Shown piece after piece: positions 17,506 through 27,671 of a stretch of 40,676 nucleotides of DNA. The stretch is from contig LCCS01000001.1 in the NCBI GenBank assembly GCA_000998045.1, positions 1-40,676 of the forward strand. The letters are read 5' to 3'. Each line of letters begins with the position of its first letter. The stretch's first letter is position 1. This DNA comes from Parcubacteria group bacterium GW2011_GWD2_42_14 (GTDB taxonomy: Bacteria > Patescibacteriota > Minisyncoccia > Phycocordibacterales > UBA12088). The notes beneath the pieces were generated by a model that saw only the letters and a program-made list of their open reading frames with translations, was not told where the DNA came from and made no database searches. The position numbers and the translations under genes are program-made.

Positions 17506-19383
17506 ATGTGCGGTATTGCGGGATATTGCGGGAAGGGGAACGAGACCATACTTGAGAGCATGAACATCTCGCTCAAACATCGTGGACCAGATGACGCTGG
17601 TTTGAAAGTATTTCAAAAAACAGATTCTTCGATAGGTATTGCACAACGACGTCTTTCCATAGTTGACCTTTCTCCTGCAGGGCACCAGCCAATGACAAAC
17701 GAAACCGAAGATGTTTGGATTGTTTTTAACGGGGAGATTTACAACCATCACGAGCTCCGGGAGGAGTTGAAAAACAAGCATACATTTATTGGGAAAAGTG
17801 ACACCGAAGTTATCGTACACCTCTATGAAGAGATAGGGGAAGAAGTGTTTTCAAGACTTGAGGGCATGTTTGCTATAGCACTATATGATGTAAAAAAAGA
17901 TTTGCTTTTCCTTGCGCGTGACCGTATGGGTAAAAAACCTTTGTACTGGAGTCTGCAAGAGGGAACACTCCTTTTTGGCTCTGAACTCAAAGCACTTATG
18001 GTACACCCAAGCTTTGTTCGTGAGGTAGACCTGGTGTCGGTGAATAAGTACTTTCAGTATGAGTATGTGCCCACACCACACACTATTTTCAAAAACACAT
18101 GGAAGCTTGAGCCAGCGACCACGCTCGTATGGAACGGAAAGACTGCTCGCAAGAGTACATTCTGGAAGCCAACATTTTTACCCAAAAGTACCTCATTTGA
18201 AAAAGCCAAAGGCGATCTCGACAAAGCACTCACGAAGGCGGTAGCAAGTAGACTTGAGGCAGATGTGCCACTGGGTATATTCCTTTCTGGTGGTATCGAC
18301 AGTAGTGCGGTGGCATATTACGCGACGAAGACGAGCAAACAAAAAGTAAAAACATTCTCAATAGGCTTTAAGGAAAAGTCCTTTGACGAGTCTACGTATG
18401 CTCGGCAAGTGGCAGAGCATCTGGGTACAGAGCACCATGAAGAAATACTATCTGTGGAGGACTGCTTGAAGCTTATTCCTGAGATAGGCGAGTACCTTGA
18501 TGAACCTGTAGCGGACTCGTCGATAATTCCCACCTACTTACTTTCTCGTTTTACACGTGAACATGTCACCGTAGCTCTTGGGGGTGATGGGGGAGATGAG
18601 CTCTTTTGTGGGTATGACACATTTCTGGCACAACGCTTCGCTTCTGTGTATGAGCGGGTACCTGCTTTTTTACGAAAGCTTGTGGCGAAAAGCGCGCGCA
18701 TGCTTCCTACTTCACATAGCAACATGAGTCTTGACTTTAAGTTGAAGAAATCAACGAAGGATTTTGAAGGAAACCCCAACTATCGAAACCAACGCTGGCT
18801 TGGTGCGTATGGAGAGGAAGATAGGAGAAAGCTTTTTAATCAAGAAGTGTGGGAGGCTGTTGGACATAAAAATGTGTATGAGGATATAGATGGATACCTG
18901 AGAGAAGCAGACTCACGGGATACATTCGACAGATTAGGGCTGGTGTATGAACGCATGTACATGATGGACCAAGTGTTGGTCAAGGTGGACCGTGCGAGTA
19001 TGATGCATGCACTTGAGGTACGCGCACCTTTCTTAGATACGCATGTAGTGGATTTGGCAAACCACATGCCGAGTCACTTTAAACTACGTAGGACAGAGCG
19101 AAAGTATATTTTGAAAAAACTTTTGGAAGGGAAGTTACCGAGAGGAATTATTTATCGAAAGAAAAAAGGCTTTGGTATACCTGTAGGCGCGTGGATGAAA
19201 GGAGAGATGCGTCCACTACTTGAGGAACACCTTGGAAAAGATTCACTGAATACGATAGGGATTTTTAATACAGAGTACGTTGGTAAACTTCTAGCCGATC
19301 ATGTGGAGGGAAGGTGTGACAATCGCAAGCAACTCTGGACACTCCTTGTCTTCGTGCTCTGGTGGAAGAGATGGATTGTTTAA
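17506..19383 (+). CDS. asnB: Asparagine synthase-type glutamine amidotransferase
   Basis: 625 residues with both domains of glutamine-hydrolysing asparagine synthetase. Cys2 of the MCGIAGY N-terminus is the Ntn-type nucleophile that releases ammonia from glutamine. The synthetase domain has the ATP pyrophosphatase loop SGGIDSS at 261-267 and a GGDGGDELFCGYD motif. In glycan loci, homologues such as WbpS amidate uronic acids instead of making asparagine; the dehydrogenase-like gene at 11745 could supply such an acid. It might equally be an ordinary asparagine synthetase. The ATG lies 6 bp after the GT2 stop. Part of its last codons recurs, diverged, behind galE. Confidence 0.9.
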   Translation: MCGIAGYCGKGNETILESMNISLKHRGPDDAGLKVFQKTDSSIGIAQRRLSIVDLSPAGHQPMTNETEDVWIVFNGEIYNHHELREELKNKHTFIGKSDTEVIVHLYEEIGEEVFSRLEGMFAIALYDVKKDLLFLARDRMGKKPLYWSLQEGTLLFGSELKALMVHPSFVREVDLVSVNKYFQYEYVPTPHTIFKNTWKLEPATTLVWNGKTARKSTFWKPTFLPKSTSFEKAKGDLDKALTKAVASRLEADVPLGIFLSGGIDSSAVAYYATKTSKQKVKTFSIGFKEKSFDESTYARQVAEHLGTEHHEEILSVEDCLKLIPEIGEYLDEPVADSSIIPTYLLSRFTREHVTVALGGDGGDELFCGYDTFLAQRFASVYERVPAFLRKLVAKSARMLPTSHSNMSLDFKLKKSTKDFEGNPNYRNQRWLGAYGEEDRRKLFNQEVWEAVGHKNVYEDIDGYLREADSRDTFDRLGLVYERMYMMDQVLVKVDRASMMHALEVRAPFLDTHVVDLANHMPSHFKLRRTERKYILKKLLEGKLPRGIIYRKKKGFGIPVGAWMKGEMRPLLEEHLGKDSLNTIGIFNTEYVGKLLADHVEGRCDNRKQLWTLLVFVLWWKRWIV

Positions 19384-19414
19384 CATATTATTTTTAACCC
19401 CCACACGAACTACT

Positions 19415-20407
19415 ATGAATTCAAAAAAGTATATTCTTGTTACAGGTGGGGCTGGTTATATTGGTAGTCATACTTGCAAAGCCTTAGCACAGGCCGGCTA
19501 CATACCTGTGGTATACGACAATTTGGTTTATGGACATGAGTGGGCTGTAAAGTGGGGACCTTTTGAAAAAGGTGATATTACGGAACGAATGCGTTTGGAT
19601 GAGGTTATTGCCAAGTACAATCCAATTGCGGTGATGCATTTTGCGGCCTATGCATATGTTGGCGAATCAGTAGAAAACCCAGGGAAGTATTATCGGAATA
19701 ATGTATATGGTTCTCTTGTTCTTCTTGAAGCAATGCGTGACCATGGCGTACAAAAGATTATTTTTTCAAGTACTTGTGCAACATATGGTGTTCCAAAAGA
19801 AATACCTATTGCAGAAAACCATGCTCAAAAACCAATCAATCCATATGGAACTTCCAAATTAATGATTGAGCAGATTTTGAAAGATTTTGACACTGCACAC
19901 CATATACAATCAGTGTCTCTTCGTTATTTCAATGCTGCAGGAGCGGATGTTGAGGGTGAAATAGGTGAAGTGCATGACCCTGAAACACATCTCATACCAC
20001 TTGTGTTGGATGTAGCTTCCGGAAAACGTTCTCATGTAACTATTTTTGGAGATGACTACGAAACAAAAGACGGGACTTGTATACGAGATTATATTCATGT
20101 TACAGATTTAGCAGACGCGCACGTACGAGCTTTACAGTATCTTGAAAATATCAATCAAAGCACAGTTTTTAATCTAGGAAATGGTAATGGTTTTTCAGTA
20201 AAAGAAGTTGTGGCAACTGTTGAGAAAGTTACTGGTGCTGAGGTGCCTCTTGAAATTGGTGCCAAACGTGCGGGAGACCCTGCATGTCTTATTGGGGATG
20301 CTCGTAAGATTCAGACGGAGTTACAGTGGAAACCGAAATTTAGTAATCTAGAAACAATTATTCAAACTGCTTGGAATTGGCATCAAAATAATCACAAGAA
20401 AAATTAG
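19415..20407 (+). CDS. galE: UDP-glucose 4-epimerase
   Basis: Interconverts UDP-glucose and UDP-galactose (or the N-acetyl forms), supplying donors to the transferases. The start at 19415 is used because MNSKKYILVTGGAGYIGSHT begins the fold; an upstream extension overlaps asnB. NAD-binding GGAGYIG is at residues 11-17, the catalytic pair is Y144 and K148 (YGTSK), with SSTCATYG before it. LRYFNAAGAD and GTCIRDYIHVTDLADAH are diagnostic of GalE. At 330 residues it has normal length. It is more AT-rich than asnB, and a scrap resembling the asnB 3' end follows its stop, suggesting insertion at this place. Confidence 0.93.
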   Translation: MNSKKYILVTGGAGYIGSHTCKALAQAGYIPVVYDNLVYGHEWAVKWGPFEKGDITERMRLDEVIAKYNPIAVMHFAAYAYVGESVENPGKYYRNNVYGSLVLLEAMRDHGVQKIIFSSTCATYGVPKEIPIAENHAQKPINPYGTSKLMIEQILKDFDTAHHIQSVSLRYFNAAGADVEGEIGEVHDPETHLIPLVLDVASGKRSHVTIFGDDYETKDGTCIRDYIHVTDLADAHVRALQYLENINQSTVFNLGNGNGFSVKEVVATVEKVTGAEVPLEIGAKRAGDPACLIGDARKIQTELQWKPKFSNLETIIQTAWNWHQNNHKKN

Positions 20408-20411
20408 TTTT

Positions 20412-20442
20412 CTCTGGACACTTCTTGTTTTTGTGTTCTGAT
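20412..20442 (+). pseudogene. Remnant of an asnB 3' end
   Basis: This 31-bp stretch matches 19333-19363 inside asnB at 26 positions. In the asnB frame it reads LWTLLVFVF-stop against LWTLLVFVLWW. All five differences are transitions and three are silent third-position changes, as expected for diverged coding sequence. It begins 5 bp after the galE stop. Nothing else of a second asnB is visible. Confidence 0.6.
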
Positions 20443-20479
20443 AAAAAAATAAGTGGGGGAAAAGTAAAGAAGAAATTTC

Positions 20480-20488
20480 TGGTATACT
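20480..20488 (+). promoter_or_regulatory. Extended -10 promoter before the methyltransferase at 20519
   Basis: TG-G-TATACT with the hexamer at 20483-20488 and no clear -35. A tiny ORF, MKYSLCI (20499-20522), starts 10 bp later and its TGA overlaps the ATG at 20519, so it could be a coupled leader or chance. Confidence 0.5.
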
Positions 20489-20518
20489 TAATTTTTATAT
20501 GAAATATTCATTGTGTAT

Positions 20519-21370
20519 ATGATTTTTTCAAAAAAAACAGATTTACTTAACTTATTTGTATTAACAATATCTTTTTTTGAGTATATACCGTTACGAATTG
20601 TTCGAAAGTTTTTCTTTTCAGAAAAAACACTGGATGTAATTGGTTTGTACGTTCCTTACTATAAAGTAAACAACAATAGAGTGAATGCGTCTAATGTAGC
20701 CTTAAAGTTTTTTGAGCATATAAAAAATAATTTCAATTTAGAGAAACCCGAAAAATTAGTTGTATTGGAGGTTGGATCTGGAGCAACAAACGCTATTGGT
20801 TATGAGTTAGCAAGTAGAGGTTTCAGGAAGATAATAACTTACGAACCATACATGTCATTCGATCAGTCTGCTGATGGATTACTTTTAGAGGAGACATGCA
20901 ATATGCACAACCTAAAAAAAGAAAATATTTTAAAAAAAGTAACCAGAATAAATTCACTAAATGAGCTACCTAAGAGTACCAAATTTGATATAGTAATTTC
21001 TAATCATGTGCTTGAGCATGTAACAGATCCTACAAATTTATTTATTCAACTAACCTCAATGATGAATAAAAAAAGCATACAAATACATTTCATTGGATAT
21101 ATTGATCATTTTTTTAAATACCCATACCACTTACTTATGTTTAATAAAAAAACATGGGAACAATGGTTGAATCCTGGTAATTTACCTGGGTGGCGCTTGT
21201 ACGATCATATTGATATATTGTCAAAATTGGGACTTCATTCAAAAGTGTTAGATATAGAAAGTGATGAAGAGGAATTTATAAAGGTTAAAAACTATATTAG
21301 CAGTGATTACGATAAAGATAATAACTATCTTGAAGTTAATTATTGCACTTTGTTAATTGAAAATATTTAG
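20519..21370 (+). CDS. Class I SAM-dependent methyltransferase
   Basis: 283 residues from the ATG at 20519 (a GTG at 20513 is possible). Motif I is VVLEVGSGATNAIGYEL, strand 2 ends in TYEP, and FDIVISNHVLEHVTDP is motif IV with the following helix. A hydrophobic N-terminus (LFVLTISFFEYIPLRIV) may bind the membrane. The C-terminal part has IHFIGYIDHFFKYPYHLLMF, fitting a larger acceptor. It is AT-rich, like the next two genes and unlike those before 20400, and has its own promoter-like signal. Probably a glycan or polyprenyl-linked sugar methyltransferase. Confidence 0.8.
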   Translation: MIFSKKTDLLNLFVLTISFFEYIPLRIVRKFFFSEKTLDVIGLYVPYYKVNNNRVNASNVALKFFEHIKNNFNLEKPEKLVVLEVGSGATNAIGYELASRGFRKIITYEPYMSFDQSADGLLLEETCNMHNLKKENILKKVTRINSLNELPKSTKFDIVISNHVLEHVTDPTNLFIQLTSMMNKKSIQIHFIGYIDHFFKYPYHLLMFNKKTWEQWLNPGNLPGWRLYDHIDILSKLGLHSKVLDIESDEEEFIKVKNYISSDYDKDNNYLEVNYCTLLIENI

Positions 21371-21381
21371 TCTTGGAAGAT

Positions 21382-22542
21382 ATGAGAATTTTACTTTTAA
21401 ATTATGAGTACCCACCATTAGGAGGTGGTGCGGGTAATTCAACAATGAATATCGCAAAATCTTATGCAAAATTGGGACATCAAGTATTAGTTTTAACCAC
21501 GTGGCATGAAAATCTTCTTGAGTTAGAAAAAAACAATAATTTAACAATTGTAAGAATCAAATCTAGGAGGAAAAGAAAAGATAGATCAAATCCCTTTGAA
21601 ATGCTTTCCTATTCATTTTTAGCCATAAAAAATAGGAAATTAGTACTTGATTTTATGCCAGACTATTCAATAGCTTTTATGGCTTTACCATCTGGAATTC
21701 CCGCATACTTTTTTTTTAAGAAATTTAAAATCCCTTATATATTATCTGTGCAAGGTGGAGATGTTCCTGGTTTTTTGTCAAATATTATTTCGTTAAGAAT
21801 TTATCATTTTATTTCATTACCTCTGACTAAAATTCTTTGGAGAAATTCGATAAAAGTAATTGCAAACAGTAAGGGTCTTATGCAACTAGCACAAAAGACT
21901 GGCACAAAAATTAATACAAAAATTGGCTATTTTCCTAATGGAGTGGACCTTGATTTTTTTAAACCAAAAATAAAAAGAATTGAAAACAAAAAACCAACCA
22001 TTATCTTTGTTGGACGTTTTTCACCTCAAAAAGGTCTGGAATATTTATTAGAGGCTACTTTTCTACTGAAAAAAAAATATGGAGATTGTTTCTTTAAACT
22101 TGAATTAGTGGGCGATGGACCAGAGAAAAAAAAGATCGTTAATTTGATAGATGAATATGACTTAAAAAAGATTGTAACAATTTCACCTTGGTGTTCTAAA
22201 GAAGAGTTGCTAGAAAAATATCAAAATTCAGATATATTTGTCTTGTCGTCTCATGAAGAGGGTATGCCCAATGTTTTGTCAGAAGCTATGGCGTGCAGAT
22301 TATCGATAGTTTCTACTAGAGTAAGAGGTAGTGATGAATTGATAGAAAATAATGTAAATGGTTTTTTAGTTGAGCCAAGAAACGCTGAAGAACTTGCTGA
22401 TAAAATTGATATTTTGATTAGTAATAAAGAAATCAGAGAAAGATTTTCTACAGAAGGCTTGAAAAAGATTTCAAATTTTAGTTGGGAAAATGTTGCAGAA
22501 TACTATCTTAATGTGTATGAAAAATATAAAAAACATTTATGA
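21382..22542 (+). CDS. Glycosyltransferase family 4
   Basis: 386 residues. I use the ATG at 21382 (MRILLLNYEYPPLGGGAGNS) over a TTG three codons earlier because the family begins there. VQGGDVPGF and ANSKGLMQLA are acceptor-domain features; FVGRFSPQKGLEYLLEA and HEEGMPNVLSEAMACRLSIVS belong to the donor domain, with E-x7-E intact. It begins 12 bp after the methyltransferase and overlaps the next gene by 4 bp. Very AT-rich codon use. Confidence 0.9.
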   Translation: MRILLLNYEYPPLGGGAGNSTMNIAKSYAKLGHQVLVLTTWHENLLELEKNNNLTIVRIKSRRKRKDRSNPFEMLSYSFLAIKNRKLVLDFMPDYSIAFMALPSGIPAYFFFKKFKIPYILSVQGGDVPGFLSNIISLRIYHFISLPLTKILWRNSIKVIANSKGLMQLAQKTGTKINTKIGYFPNGVDLDFFKPKIKRIENKKPTIIFVGRFSPQKGLEYLLEATFLLKKKYGDCFFKLELVGDGPEKKKIVNLIDEYDLKKIVTISPWCSKEELLEKYQNSDIFVLSSHEEGMPNVLSEAMACRLSIVSTRVRGSDELIENNVNGFLVEPRNAEELADKIDILISNKEIRERFSTEGLKKISNFSWENVAEYYLNVYEKYKKHL

Positions 22543-23441
22543 TTAAAATGAAAACTAAAGTTAGTATTAAAGCAGAGCATATACTTGAGGTGCAAAAATC
22601 ATACAGTACATATTATTCTTGTTTAGGAAAAATTGATGCTAGTAAAATTACAAAAGATATATTGTCAACAAGTAAAGTGCACGACCAGATAAAAATAATA
22701 CAAAGATATCAAAAAGAAAGTATACAAAATAAAAAAATTTTAGAAATCGGCTCAGGATATGGGTTGTTTGTTGCCGTTGGAGTAATAGACTACAATGCTG
22801 ACGTATATGGTGTTGAACCTTCAGCTCTTGGCTTCGGAGGTTCTTTTGAAATGGCACAAAAAATTCTTGTTTCTAATAATTTAGAGCAAAGTCGAATTGT
22901 TTGTGCGGTTGCTGAAGATTTACCTTTTGAAGATAATTTTTTTGACATTGTGTACTCAACGAATGTTTTTGAGCATGTAAATGACCCAGAAAAGGCATTT
23001 TCTGAAGCTATAAGAGTTTGTAAACCTGGTGGTTTGATTCAAATCGTTATACCAAACTACGGTTCTTTTTATGAGGGTCATTATGCATGTTGGTATATAC
23101 CATACACTCCAAAAAAACTTTGGAAACTATGGCTTAAATATGTACTTAAAAGAGACCCCTCTTATGCCGATACACTTCGAACGAATTTAAATTATTTTTC
23201 AGTTCAAAGATATCTAAAACCGTTCAAAGATGCAAATGTGATTGCAGTTTTAAGTATGGGAGAAGAAATATTTTTTGAAAGGATGAATACAGGCGACTTT
23301 GTGCCTTATGTCGGTTTAACAAAAGTGCAACATGCTCTGTCTTTACTTAAAAAATGTAAATTGGTGTGGCTAATCAGTAAGATATTGATGGTTGTTAAAT
23401 CTCACTCACCCCTTATTGTAACGATAAGAAAAAAGAACTGA
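22539..23441 (+). CDS. Class I SAM-dependent methyltransferase
   Basis: 300 residues. ILEIGSGYGLFVAVGV is motif I, ADVYGVEPS ends strand 2, and VCAVAEDLPFEDNFFDIVYS precedes TNVFEHVNDPEKAFSEAIRV and CKPGGLIQIVIPNYGSF. The layout is that of sugar or lipid methyltransferases near glycosyltransferases. The ATG overlaps the stop of the upstream glycosyltransferase, so the two are coupled and probably act in sequence on the same glycan. Confidence 0.85.
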   Translation: MIKMKTKVSIKAEHILEVQKSYSTYYSCLGKIDASKITKDILSTSKVHDQIKIIQRYQKESIQNKKILEIGSGYGLFVAVGVIDYNADVYGVEPSALGFGGSFEMAQKILVSNNLEQSRIVCAVAEDLPFEDNFFDIVYSTNVFEHVNDPEKAFSEAIRVCKPGGLIQIVIPNYGSFYEGHYACWYIPYTPKKLWKLWLKYVLKRDPSYADTLRTNLNYFSVQRYLKPFKDANVIAVLSMGEEIFFERMNTGDFVPYVGLTKVQHALSLLKKCKLVWLISKILMVVKSHSPLIVTIRKKN

Positions 23442-23451
23442 CGGTGAAGTT

Positions 23452-24411
23452 ATGAAAAAAATATTTATAAATTTAAGTCTCTTTTTGAGAATCTGTTTTT
23501 CATTTCTACTTGTTGGAGTTTTGATATACAAAGTTTCGTTATCTGTCATTATTGATACTGTAACAGCATATCCTTTACGGATTGTTTTTTTTGCAGCTTG
23601 TATTCACTTGTTGGCAACGGGAGTTTCAGCTTTAAGGTGGAAGATATTGTTACCAGTATTCTCATACATAGACTTATTGAAGTTTTCCTTTGTGGGACAG
23701 TTTTATGCCATGGTATTACCGGGGCAAATTACGGGGGAAATAGCGAAAGCTTATCGGGTAAGTAGAGGAAGTAATGAAAATGCGGGTAAAGTCACAGCAT
23801 CTATTGCTGTTGATAAAATTATAGGACTCATCGGGGTGATGTTTGTAACTATTCTTGGCTTACTGTTTACTGATTTACCTGAGAAAAATACATGGATTGG
23901 TAGCATTGTTTTATTATCGTTAATTTTTATAACTATTTTTGTATTTATTAGTAATGAGTATGTTCATCAAAAAACTCAAAAGCTTTTGCAAAAATCTGAG
24001 ATAAGATTTTTTAACCTTGGAAAGGTTTTTGTGTTTATTAAAGGAGTATTTGAAGGTTTTAAACAATACTCAAGTAACCCAAAAACACTAATCGTGAGTC
24101 TTTTTTTAGCAATTCTATTCCAAATACTTGCAGTTTTAATAATACTGATTTTTGCATTAGGGCTTGATATTCATATCCCATTTCAAAATTATTTCTGGAT
24201 ATTTGGAATTGTTTCGTTGGCGGTGATGTTGCCTGTTACTGTAGCTGGTCTCGGGGTAAGGGAAGGGTTATTTGTATATTTTCTGTTACAATTCAACGTG
24301 CCACCCGAGCAAGGTTTAATACTTTCACTCTCTGTTTTTTCACTTCAAGTGTTAGCAGCATGCATCGGTGCTTTTTTTGAATTAATTACTTTTTATAAAA
24401 ACAGATTTTGA
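23452..24411 (+). CDS. Flippase-like membrane protein (lysylphosphatidylglycerol synthase TM family)
   Basis: 319 residues with about seven or eight membrane helices. The family (YbhN/AglD/MprF flippase domain) contains proteins that move or modify lipids. Diagnostic stretches are ALRWKILLPVFSYIDLLKFSFVGQFY, the LPGQITGEIAKAYRV region and VTVAGLGVREGLFVYFLL near the C-terminus. In glycan loci these proteins are often placed with polyprenyl-phosphate transferases and GT-C enzymes, as here. Export of lipid-linked sugars is a plausible but unproven role. Confidence 0.85.
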   Translation: MKKIFINLSLFLRICFSFLLVGVLIYKVSLSVIIDTVTAYPLRIVFFAACIHLLATGVSALRWKILLPVFSYIDLLKFSFVGQFYAMVLPGQITGEIAKAYRVSRGSNENAGKVTASIAVDKIIGLIGVMFVTILGLLFTDLPEKNTWIGSIVLLSLIFITIFVFISNEYVHQKTQKLLQKSEIRFFNLGKVFVFIKGVFEGFKQYSSNPKTLIVSLFLAILFQILAVLIILIFALGLDIHIPFQNYFWIFGIVSLAVMLPVTVAGLGVREGLFVYFLLQFNVPPEQGLILSLSVFSLQVLAACIGAFFELITFYKNRF

Positions 24412-26769: not shown

Positions 26770-27390
26770 ATGCCAACGCCATGGAGAAAACTATCATACG
26801 AACAACTTTCGACTTTAGAGCTTTCTGGTAAAGTGCTTGATCTTGGTGGTTCAAGAAAATCAAAGTACCATGAACTCATAAGAGGGAATCATGCAATCGA
26901 AGTGGTTAATATTGATGAAAATTCAGGTCTTGATAACAACTTCGATTTAGAAAAACCTTTTCCATTGCAGAGTGAAAGTTATGACGCTGTACTCGCTTGT
27001 AATGTGCTTGAGCACATCTACAACTATCAAAACATTTTTACAGAAAGTTGCCGTGTGTTACGTAAAGGAGGAACTATTATTATAATCGTACCGTTTATAA
27101 TGTTTTTCCATCCGTCACCTCACGATTACTGGCGTTATACCAAGGAAACGCTGAATAAGTTGCTTATAGAATCCAATTTTATTGATATTTCAATAGTTCC
27201 CATTGGCCAAGGTCCATTTTTAGTTTTAGGCCAAATGTTTGGAGGAGTTCGTATACCTGAATTATTGAGAATGATTTTGTATTACAAATTATTTCTACTT
27301 GATAAAATTATTTCCTTATTTGTTAAATCAGAAGCTCTAAAGGAGCGGTATCCACTCGGGTATTTTGTAACTGCTAAAAAGAAAGTGTGA
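26770..27390 (+). CDS. Class I SAM-dependent methyltransferase
   Basis: 206 residues. LSGKVLDLGGSRKSKYHEL is motif I, VVNIDEN ends strand 2, and SYDAVLACNVLEHIYNYQN with VLRKGGTIIIIVPFI follows. The HPSPHDYWRYTKETLNKLL segment is typical of a group of methyltransferases in polysaccharide loci. Its stop codon is followed at once by the left terminal repeat of element C. Confidence 0.85.
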   Translation: MPTPWRKLSYEQLSTLELSGKVLDLGGSRKSKYHELIRGNHAIEVVNIDENSGLDNNFDLEKPFPLQSESYDAVLACNVLEHIYNYQNIFTESCRVLRKGGTIIIIVPFIMFFHPSPHDYWRYTKETLNKLLIESNFIDISIVPIGQGPFLVLGQMFGGVRIPELLRMILYYKLFLLDKIISLFVKSEALKERYPLGYFVTAKKKV

Positions 27391-27669
27391 ATCCCGTTAG
27401 AGACAAAAATATGTGGTATGTGTATGTACTTAAAAGTCAGAAAGATGGTAATCTGTATACAGGTTTTACGGGGGACTTACGGAAACGATTAAGGCAACAT
27501 GAGAAAGGAGAAAGCAACTCAACAAAGAACAGAGGACCATTTACATTAATATATTATGAAGCAAGTAATAACGAGGAAGACGCCAGGGCGCGTGAGAAGT
27601 ACCTTAAGTCTGGTATGGGCAAAAGGTATATTAATAATCGCCTCAAACGTTTCCTGTCTCTAACGGGAT
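27391..27669. mobile_element. Terminal-inverted-repeat element C carrying a GIY-YIG nuclease
   Basis: 279 bp with perfect 14-bp inverted ends, ATCCCGTTAGAGAC (27391-27404) and GTCTCTAACGGGAT (27656-27669). It begins at the base after the upstream stop codon, and its last two bases are the start of the ATG at 27668. The only gene inside is the GIY-YIG nuclease, so this is a candidate complete copy, with A (5029) and B (16434) as shortened relatives. No target-site duplication is obvious. Confidence 0.75.
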
Positions 27670-27671
27670 GA
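27411..27671 (+). CDS. GIY-YIG endonuclease (UvrC/URI-type, single domain)
   Basis: 86 residues from the ATG at 27411; a GTG at 27387 would add MNPVRDKN, encoded by the terminal repeat. The nuclease core is WYVYVLKSQKDGNLYTGFT (the GIY and YIG strands), then an Arg-rich helix DLRKRLRQHEKG and the catalytic Glu in LIYYEASNNEEDARARE. Such nucleases cut or nick one DNA strand and are found in homing elements, UvrC and stand-alone URI proteins. The final LSLTG-stop is encoded by the right terminal repeat, and the stop overlaps the next gene's ATG by 4 bp. It could mediate movement of the element or be a passenger; neither is shown. Confidence 0.87.
   Translation: MWYVYVLKSQKDGNLYTGFTGDLRKRLRQHEKGESNSTKNRGPFTLIYYEASNNEEDARAREKYLKSGMGKRYINNRLKRFLSLTG

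Follow-up and report, generated by a model that had tools for sequence, protein, structure and literature searches.

The window, by which we mean the whole stretch of 40,676 bases analysed here, belongs to a multi-contig draft genome of 1.08 Mb (G000), and the closest relative of this genome is Parcubacteria GW2011_GWA2_43_11 (G001). The locus reads GT2, asnB, galE, a short scrap of DNA, a methyltransferase (MT1), a glycosyltransferase (GT), a second methyltransferase (MT2) and an LPG gene. In G001 the order is GT2, asnB, an FkbM-like gene (named by eye), MT1, GT, MT2 and an LPG-synthase-like gene; GT2-asnB before the gap and MT1-GT-MT2-LPG after it are common to the two genomes. The coordinates of the features are collected in Table 1.

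Table 1 Features around the asnB-galE junction, in positions of the window.
Feature	Position	Strand	Basis
asnB-like glutamine-hydrolysing asparagine synthase/amidotransferase, intact	17506..19383	+	Pfam PF00733, PF13537; TIGR01536 above cut-off
Repeat copy 1, within the intact asnB tail	19333..19361	+	Direct-repeat comparison
galE segment: last asnB codons, 31-bp spacer, galE, four T	19377..20411	+	G001 DNA match ends at 19376, resumes at 20412
galE, UDP-glucose 4-epimerase	19415..20407	+	TIGR01179, 472.8 bits (cut-off 262.3)
asnB 3'-end remnant: LWTLLVFV followed by decayed codons across the region of the former stop	20412..20477	+	Alignment with G001 asnB tail
Promoter-like element TCTGGTATACTTAA (extended -10, TGnTATACT), retained from the former gap between asnB and the methyltransferase	20478..20491	+	Exact 14-mer in G001
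Methyltransferase adjoining the scrap (MT1), homologue of G001 C14:3824-4642	20513..21370	+	PF13489; 55% aa
Glycosyltransferase of the diverged block (GT)	21373..22542	+	44% to G001
Second methyltransferase (MT2)	22539..23441	+	74% aa to G001; diverged at synonymous sites

The window asnB is 93% identical to that of G001 at the amino acid level and 90% at the DNA level up to position 19376, where the DNA match stops, and the C-termini differ (RWIV* in the window, RWMGKTVR* in G001). As a baseline for divergence between the two genomes we used 92 reciprocal-best orthologue pairs, with a median dS of 0.54 and a median third-position identity of 0.73. The corresponding values were 0.53 and 0.74 for asnB, and 0.37 and 0.80 for its upstream neighbour GT2. 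Since the divergence of both genes from G001 is ordinary, the window asnB does not look like a foreign newcomer. Its identity to G001 is even up to 19376, with no step in divergence; a closely related donor would leave none.

The galE segment behind it has no counterpart at the same place in G001 or G004, and asnB stands intact without galE behind it in G001, G004 and bin-3837. galE is clearly new to the family, within which its closest relative is only 34% identical. Of 147 other genomes from the order, two have strong homologues, with 46% identity in the best case. In a survey of 80 other asnB loci, no galE of at least 40% identity was found near asnB, and no asnB-galE donor came to light. 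The original prediction was that asnB and galE had together replaced, or been inserted into, an older asnB. The part about a recombination or insertion footprint holds up, with the scrap being an asnB 3' end by homology to G001, and so does the novelty of galE; the idea of asnB as a newcomer does not fit its genome-typical dS. The prediction is supported in part: joint arrival of asnB and galE, for which those 80 loci gave no donor, and a greater age of the scrap are no more than possible.

We looked for signs of a dedicated mobile element. There is no inverted repeat joining the ends of the segment and no transposase, galE being the sole ORF of at least 80 aa inside it, and a transposon insertion was rejected for lack of these signs. 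Site-specific integration at the gene 3' end was likewise rejected, as the repeats are 86% identical rather than near-identical att sites and the segment contains no integrase ORF. In a microhomology search at the galE-scrap junction the best match, a short and suggestive one between the end of galE and the asnB sequence just before the break, was not significant (P 0.08).

Directly behind galE, with four T between its stop codon (20405-20407) and position 20412, lies the scrap. The repeat reported in the original prediction was reproduced exactly: 19333-19363 and 20412-20442 are identical at 26 of 31 positions, the five mismatches consist of transitions only (four C/T, one G/A), and the reading LWTLLVFV is kept, the scrap giving LWTLLVFVF* in the asnB frame. 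When 20412-20440 is set against 19333-19361, 25 of 29 positions agree. This pair is the top direct repeat within 17-22 kb, and the asnB 29-mer has no other site at up to nine mismatches on either strand of the window. We then searched for LWTLLVFV in any codons, using the degenerate DNA pattern YTNTGGACNYTNYTNGTNTTYGTN. It has exactly two sites in the 1.08 Mb genome, asnB and the scrap. Across 397 genomes of the order the count rises to five, with none outside this genus; these sites are the scrap, three intact copies of asnB and an orphan tail in the genome G002. The reversed pattern, used as a control, gave zero matches in the same 397 genomes.

Comparison with G001 extended the homology well beyond the repeat. 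Positions 20412-20491 align with G001 2869-2950 at 77% identity over 82 columns (blastn E 1e-7); the local score was 66, whereas 300 shuffles reached 25 at most, and the window's own asnB tail scores 38. The alignment crosses the asnB stop codon and runs into the following spacer, with identities of 27/29 in the LWTLLVFV part, 23/36 in the middle and 14/14 at the end. The original prediction called for a relative whose asnB end is closer to the scrap and is followed by the same downstream sequence, and G001 is such a relative: its asnB is closer to the scrap than the window's own asnB is, and behind it come the same sequence, including the 14-mer, and further on the MT1 homologue. Because the homology passes through the stop into the 14-mer, and because the MT1 homologue lies downstream in G001, the scrap is an asnB end together with the promoter behind it.

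G000 and G001 each have a single copy of the 14-mer TCTGGTATACTTAA, placed behind an asnB tail in both, and the other genomes of the genus lack it. It contains TGnTATACT, and in G000 the 80 bp in front of ORFs are enriched about 19-fold in the motif TGNTATAMT (13 of 40 sites; reversed control 2 of 20), so that TCTGGTATACTTAA is probably a promoter. Set against G001, the scrap has 15 differences, 11 of them G>A or C>T, among which TGG TGG in the stop region has become TGA TAA; such a GC-to-AT bias is what a decaying remnant would be expected to show. No known RNA element was matched by Rfam anywhere in the window, and no terminator was found at the scrap. Judged from its sequence, the scrap is a real, decaying leftover of an asnB end and of the promoter that once stood behind that end, in other words a recombination scar.

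The coding remnant is about 30 bp long, so that a handful of sites bear on where in the genus the scrap came from. At third positions it matches G001 in 7 of 8 degenerate codons, which can be set against identities of 0.74 for vertically inherited asnB and 0.46 for the diverged block described below; vertically inherited asnB fits better, with a likelihood ratio of about 14 from this tiny sample. Columns 21 and 25 of the tail group the window asnB with G001 against the scrap, a pattern that would fit simple decay and descent from a more distant allele equally well.

Downstream of the scrap, the stretch 20513-23600 is very AT-rich (GC 0.29-0.32 versus 0.42 genome-wide), and the corresponding block of G001 is similarly AT-rich. 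MT1 is present only in G000 and G001 among the 397 genomes. Third-position identity to G001 drops to 0.46 in MT1, 0.44 in GT and 0.50 in MT2, and near 23.6 kb, within the LPG gene, it recovers to about 0.8. The G001 glycosyltransferase is 46-47% identical to those of G004 and bin-3837, compared with 44% to that of the window, and a clade of the window GT with the G001 GT was rejected (p-AU 0.022). The block 20513-23600 is likely to be exchanged DNA. As the divergence of asnB is normal and that of MT1-GT-MT2 far higher, the scrap lies at the left edge of this diverged block.

Other relatives show that the slot behind asnB varies. In G004 and bin-3837 (L023), GT2-asnB is followed by other genes and then by GT-MT2. 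The cluster of G002 is collinear with the window, with homologues of the 273-16426 genes on the left and of 27668 and 28731 on the right; it has no asnB, yet carries an orphan asnB tail, RGDNRKRLWTLLVFVMWWKKWVKKND, with the frame intact to the stop. A sulfotransferase-like gene (named by eye) precedes this tail (L013:7453-7555, contig C11 near 67,450-67,555), an SDR gene in convergent orientation follows it, and the genome lacks the asnB in question. It begins upstream of the window break, at about residue 593-603 versus 610, and with these different starting points the two breaks are not the same. An asnB tail profile run over 84 loci found it as the sole orphan tail besides that of the window; two further matches, at L038 and L039, look like asnB genes interrupted by a stop or frameshift. 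The start of both orphan fragments of the genus falls in roughly the final 5% of the gene, and different genes fill the slot behind asnB in the relatives seen. It is conceivable, though rather doubtful, that gene swaps in Parcubacteria surface-polymer clusters preferentially use the 3' end of asnB as a break point.

The view of asnB as the sole gene that leaves scraps was rejected, as the intergenic DNA of these clusters also has fragments of glycosyltransferases, methyltransferases and small proteins; since such fragments are there, gene scraps belong to the normal turnover of these clusters. Several individual stretches were noted along the way. In G002, L127 14163-14573 (contig C11 near 54,160-54,570) holds what looks like the remnant of a glycosyltransferase, a fragment of about 100-125 aa on the reverse strand. 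On contig C14 of G001, L014:11681-12000 into L125:1-380 is a methyltransferase-like stretch without a long ORF, between polymer genes and the conserved flank. The window has a 94-aa ORF at 27387-27671 whose G002 homologue (L127:15188-15472) lies on the opposite strand and seems to be frameshifted, with 76% identity over 51 residues; this is a small gene moved or inverted between the relatives.

Taking these results together, we propose, with a probability of roughly 0.6, that the scrap was once the 3' end of an asnB allele and has since been displaced and is decaying, with the next gene's promoter still behind it, and that a galE piece entered at the asnB 3' end. The ancestral order would have been GT2-asnB-promoter-MT1. 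A DNA piece with galE, perhaps plus a matching piece of asnB, would have entered at the 3' end of asnB, joined by homology within asnB on one side and by an illegitimate join just behind the galE stop on the other. This would have left asnB whole with new last codons and pushed its old 3' end behind galE, where the remnant would have drifted towards A+T while the MT1 promoter was kept. The MT1-glycosyltransferase-MT2 stretch may have been exchanged, or have diverged separately, as part of the turnover of the surface-polymer cluster. The presence of the ComEC and RecA families in G000 was counted in favour of an insertion of galE. The order of events at asnB-galE-scrap is less certain than the identity of the scrap.

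The scrap might instead have arrived with the diverged block. A donor stretch of asnB tail, promoter, MT1, GT and MT2 would then have joined by homology on the right, near 23.6 kb, and illegitimately on the left, behind a galE already resident, and the scrap would be the end of the donor's asnB, not of an older resident. The strong third-position divergence of the block between two normal flanks, the rejected glycosyltransferase clade and the two tail columns that set the scrap apart from both the window and the G001 asnB all speak for this account, which we regard as possible although not likely. Against it stand the near-identity of the scrap's coding part to G001 and its exact 14-mer, and 7 of 8 matching third positions would be expected with a P of only about 0.02 at an identity of 0.46. 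A local duplication is a further alternative: the galE insertion itself, through a staggered break or template switch, would have duplicated about 44 bp of the asnB 3' end, making the scrap a copy of the window asnB. The G001 match, stopping at 19376 and restarting at 20412, would define the copied stretch as 19333-19376, and a second asnB allele would be unnecessary. However, the copies differ from each other at 4 of 29 positions and from G001 at 2 of 29 each, and they have no change relative to G001 in common, which makes this explanation improbable in our view.

Two further explanations concern whether the arrangement is real. It is seen in one assembled genome only, a multi-contig draft, and could in principle be a chimera of two strains' loci; but the repeat copies have an exact run of 11 bp at most in common, a length insufficient for an assembler to have merged them, and the galE side of the junction has no sequence in common with G001, so that a chimera seems very improbable. 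For the coding match alone, which is short, one could entertain a coincidence or a conserved signal that has nothing to do with asnB, and yet this is hardly credible given the blastn E value, the absence of the pattern outside the genus, the passage of the homology beyond the asnB stop into the promoter, and the contrary evidence of the relatives. An excision model, with G001 derived from the window state through recombination between the repeats, was not favoured either, as the G001 tail alternates between the two copies without a single switch.

The proposed galE insertion, with displacement of the old asnB end, has parallels in other bacteria. In the capsule locus of Neisseria meningitidis, as here, acquired polysaccharide genes are flanked by an intact gene (galE1) and, at their other end, by a remnant of the same gene that is truncated at the 5' side (galE2), and illegitimate recombination into the resident gene was proposed (PMC5349592). 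The features that mark such a scar are all found in the scrap, which is homologous to the end of the neighbouring intact gene, is linked to the relatives' downstream sequence, and is set off by intervening DNA absent from the relatives. Unlike the scrap, galE2 lies in the inverted Region D' and keeps 615 bp (PMC5349592); the scar in the window is direct, has about 30 bp of readable coding sequence, derives from asnB and encloses a cargo of one gene. The effector-immunity arrays of the Vibrio cholerae T6SS (PMC5361080) similarly combine a new 3' module, homology upstream, an illegitimate join on the other side and an old 3' end moved downstream, whereas the window has no toxin or immunity gene, its leftover is not functional as a protein, and only one step is seen. 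Homology-facilitated illegitimate recombination (PMC3240628), with homology at one end and an illegitimate join at the other, matches the mechanism suggested here, in our case from one junction.

Patescibacteria have been reported to take up and recombine DNA, and competence has been reported for them (PMC10633639, PMC12455944), reports with which the scar is in keeping. It is a readable recombination scar in an uncultured, ultra-small bacterium of the candidate phyla, with a close relative showing the pre-insertion state, and scars like it could be of use in dating and counting gene exchange in the surface-polymer clusters of Patescibacteria. Comparable scars are known elsewhere among bacteria, and the window offers a clear and well-anchored example of them rather than a new kind of system.
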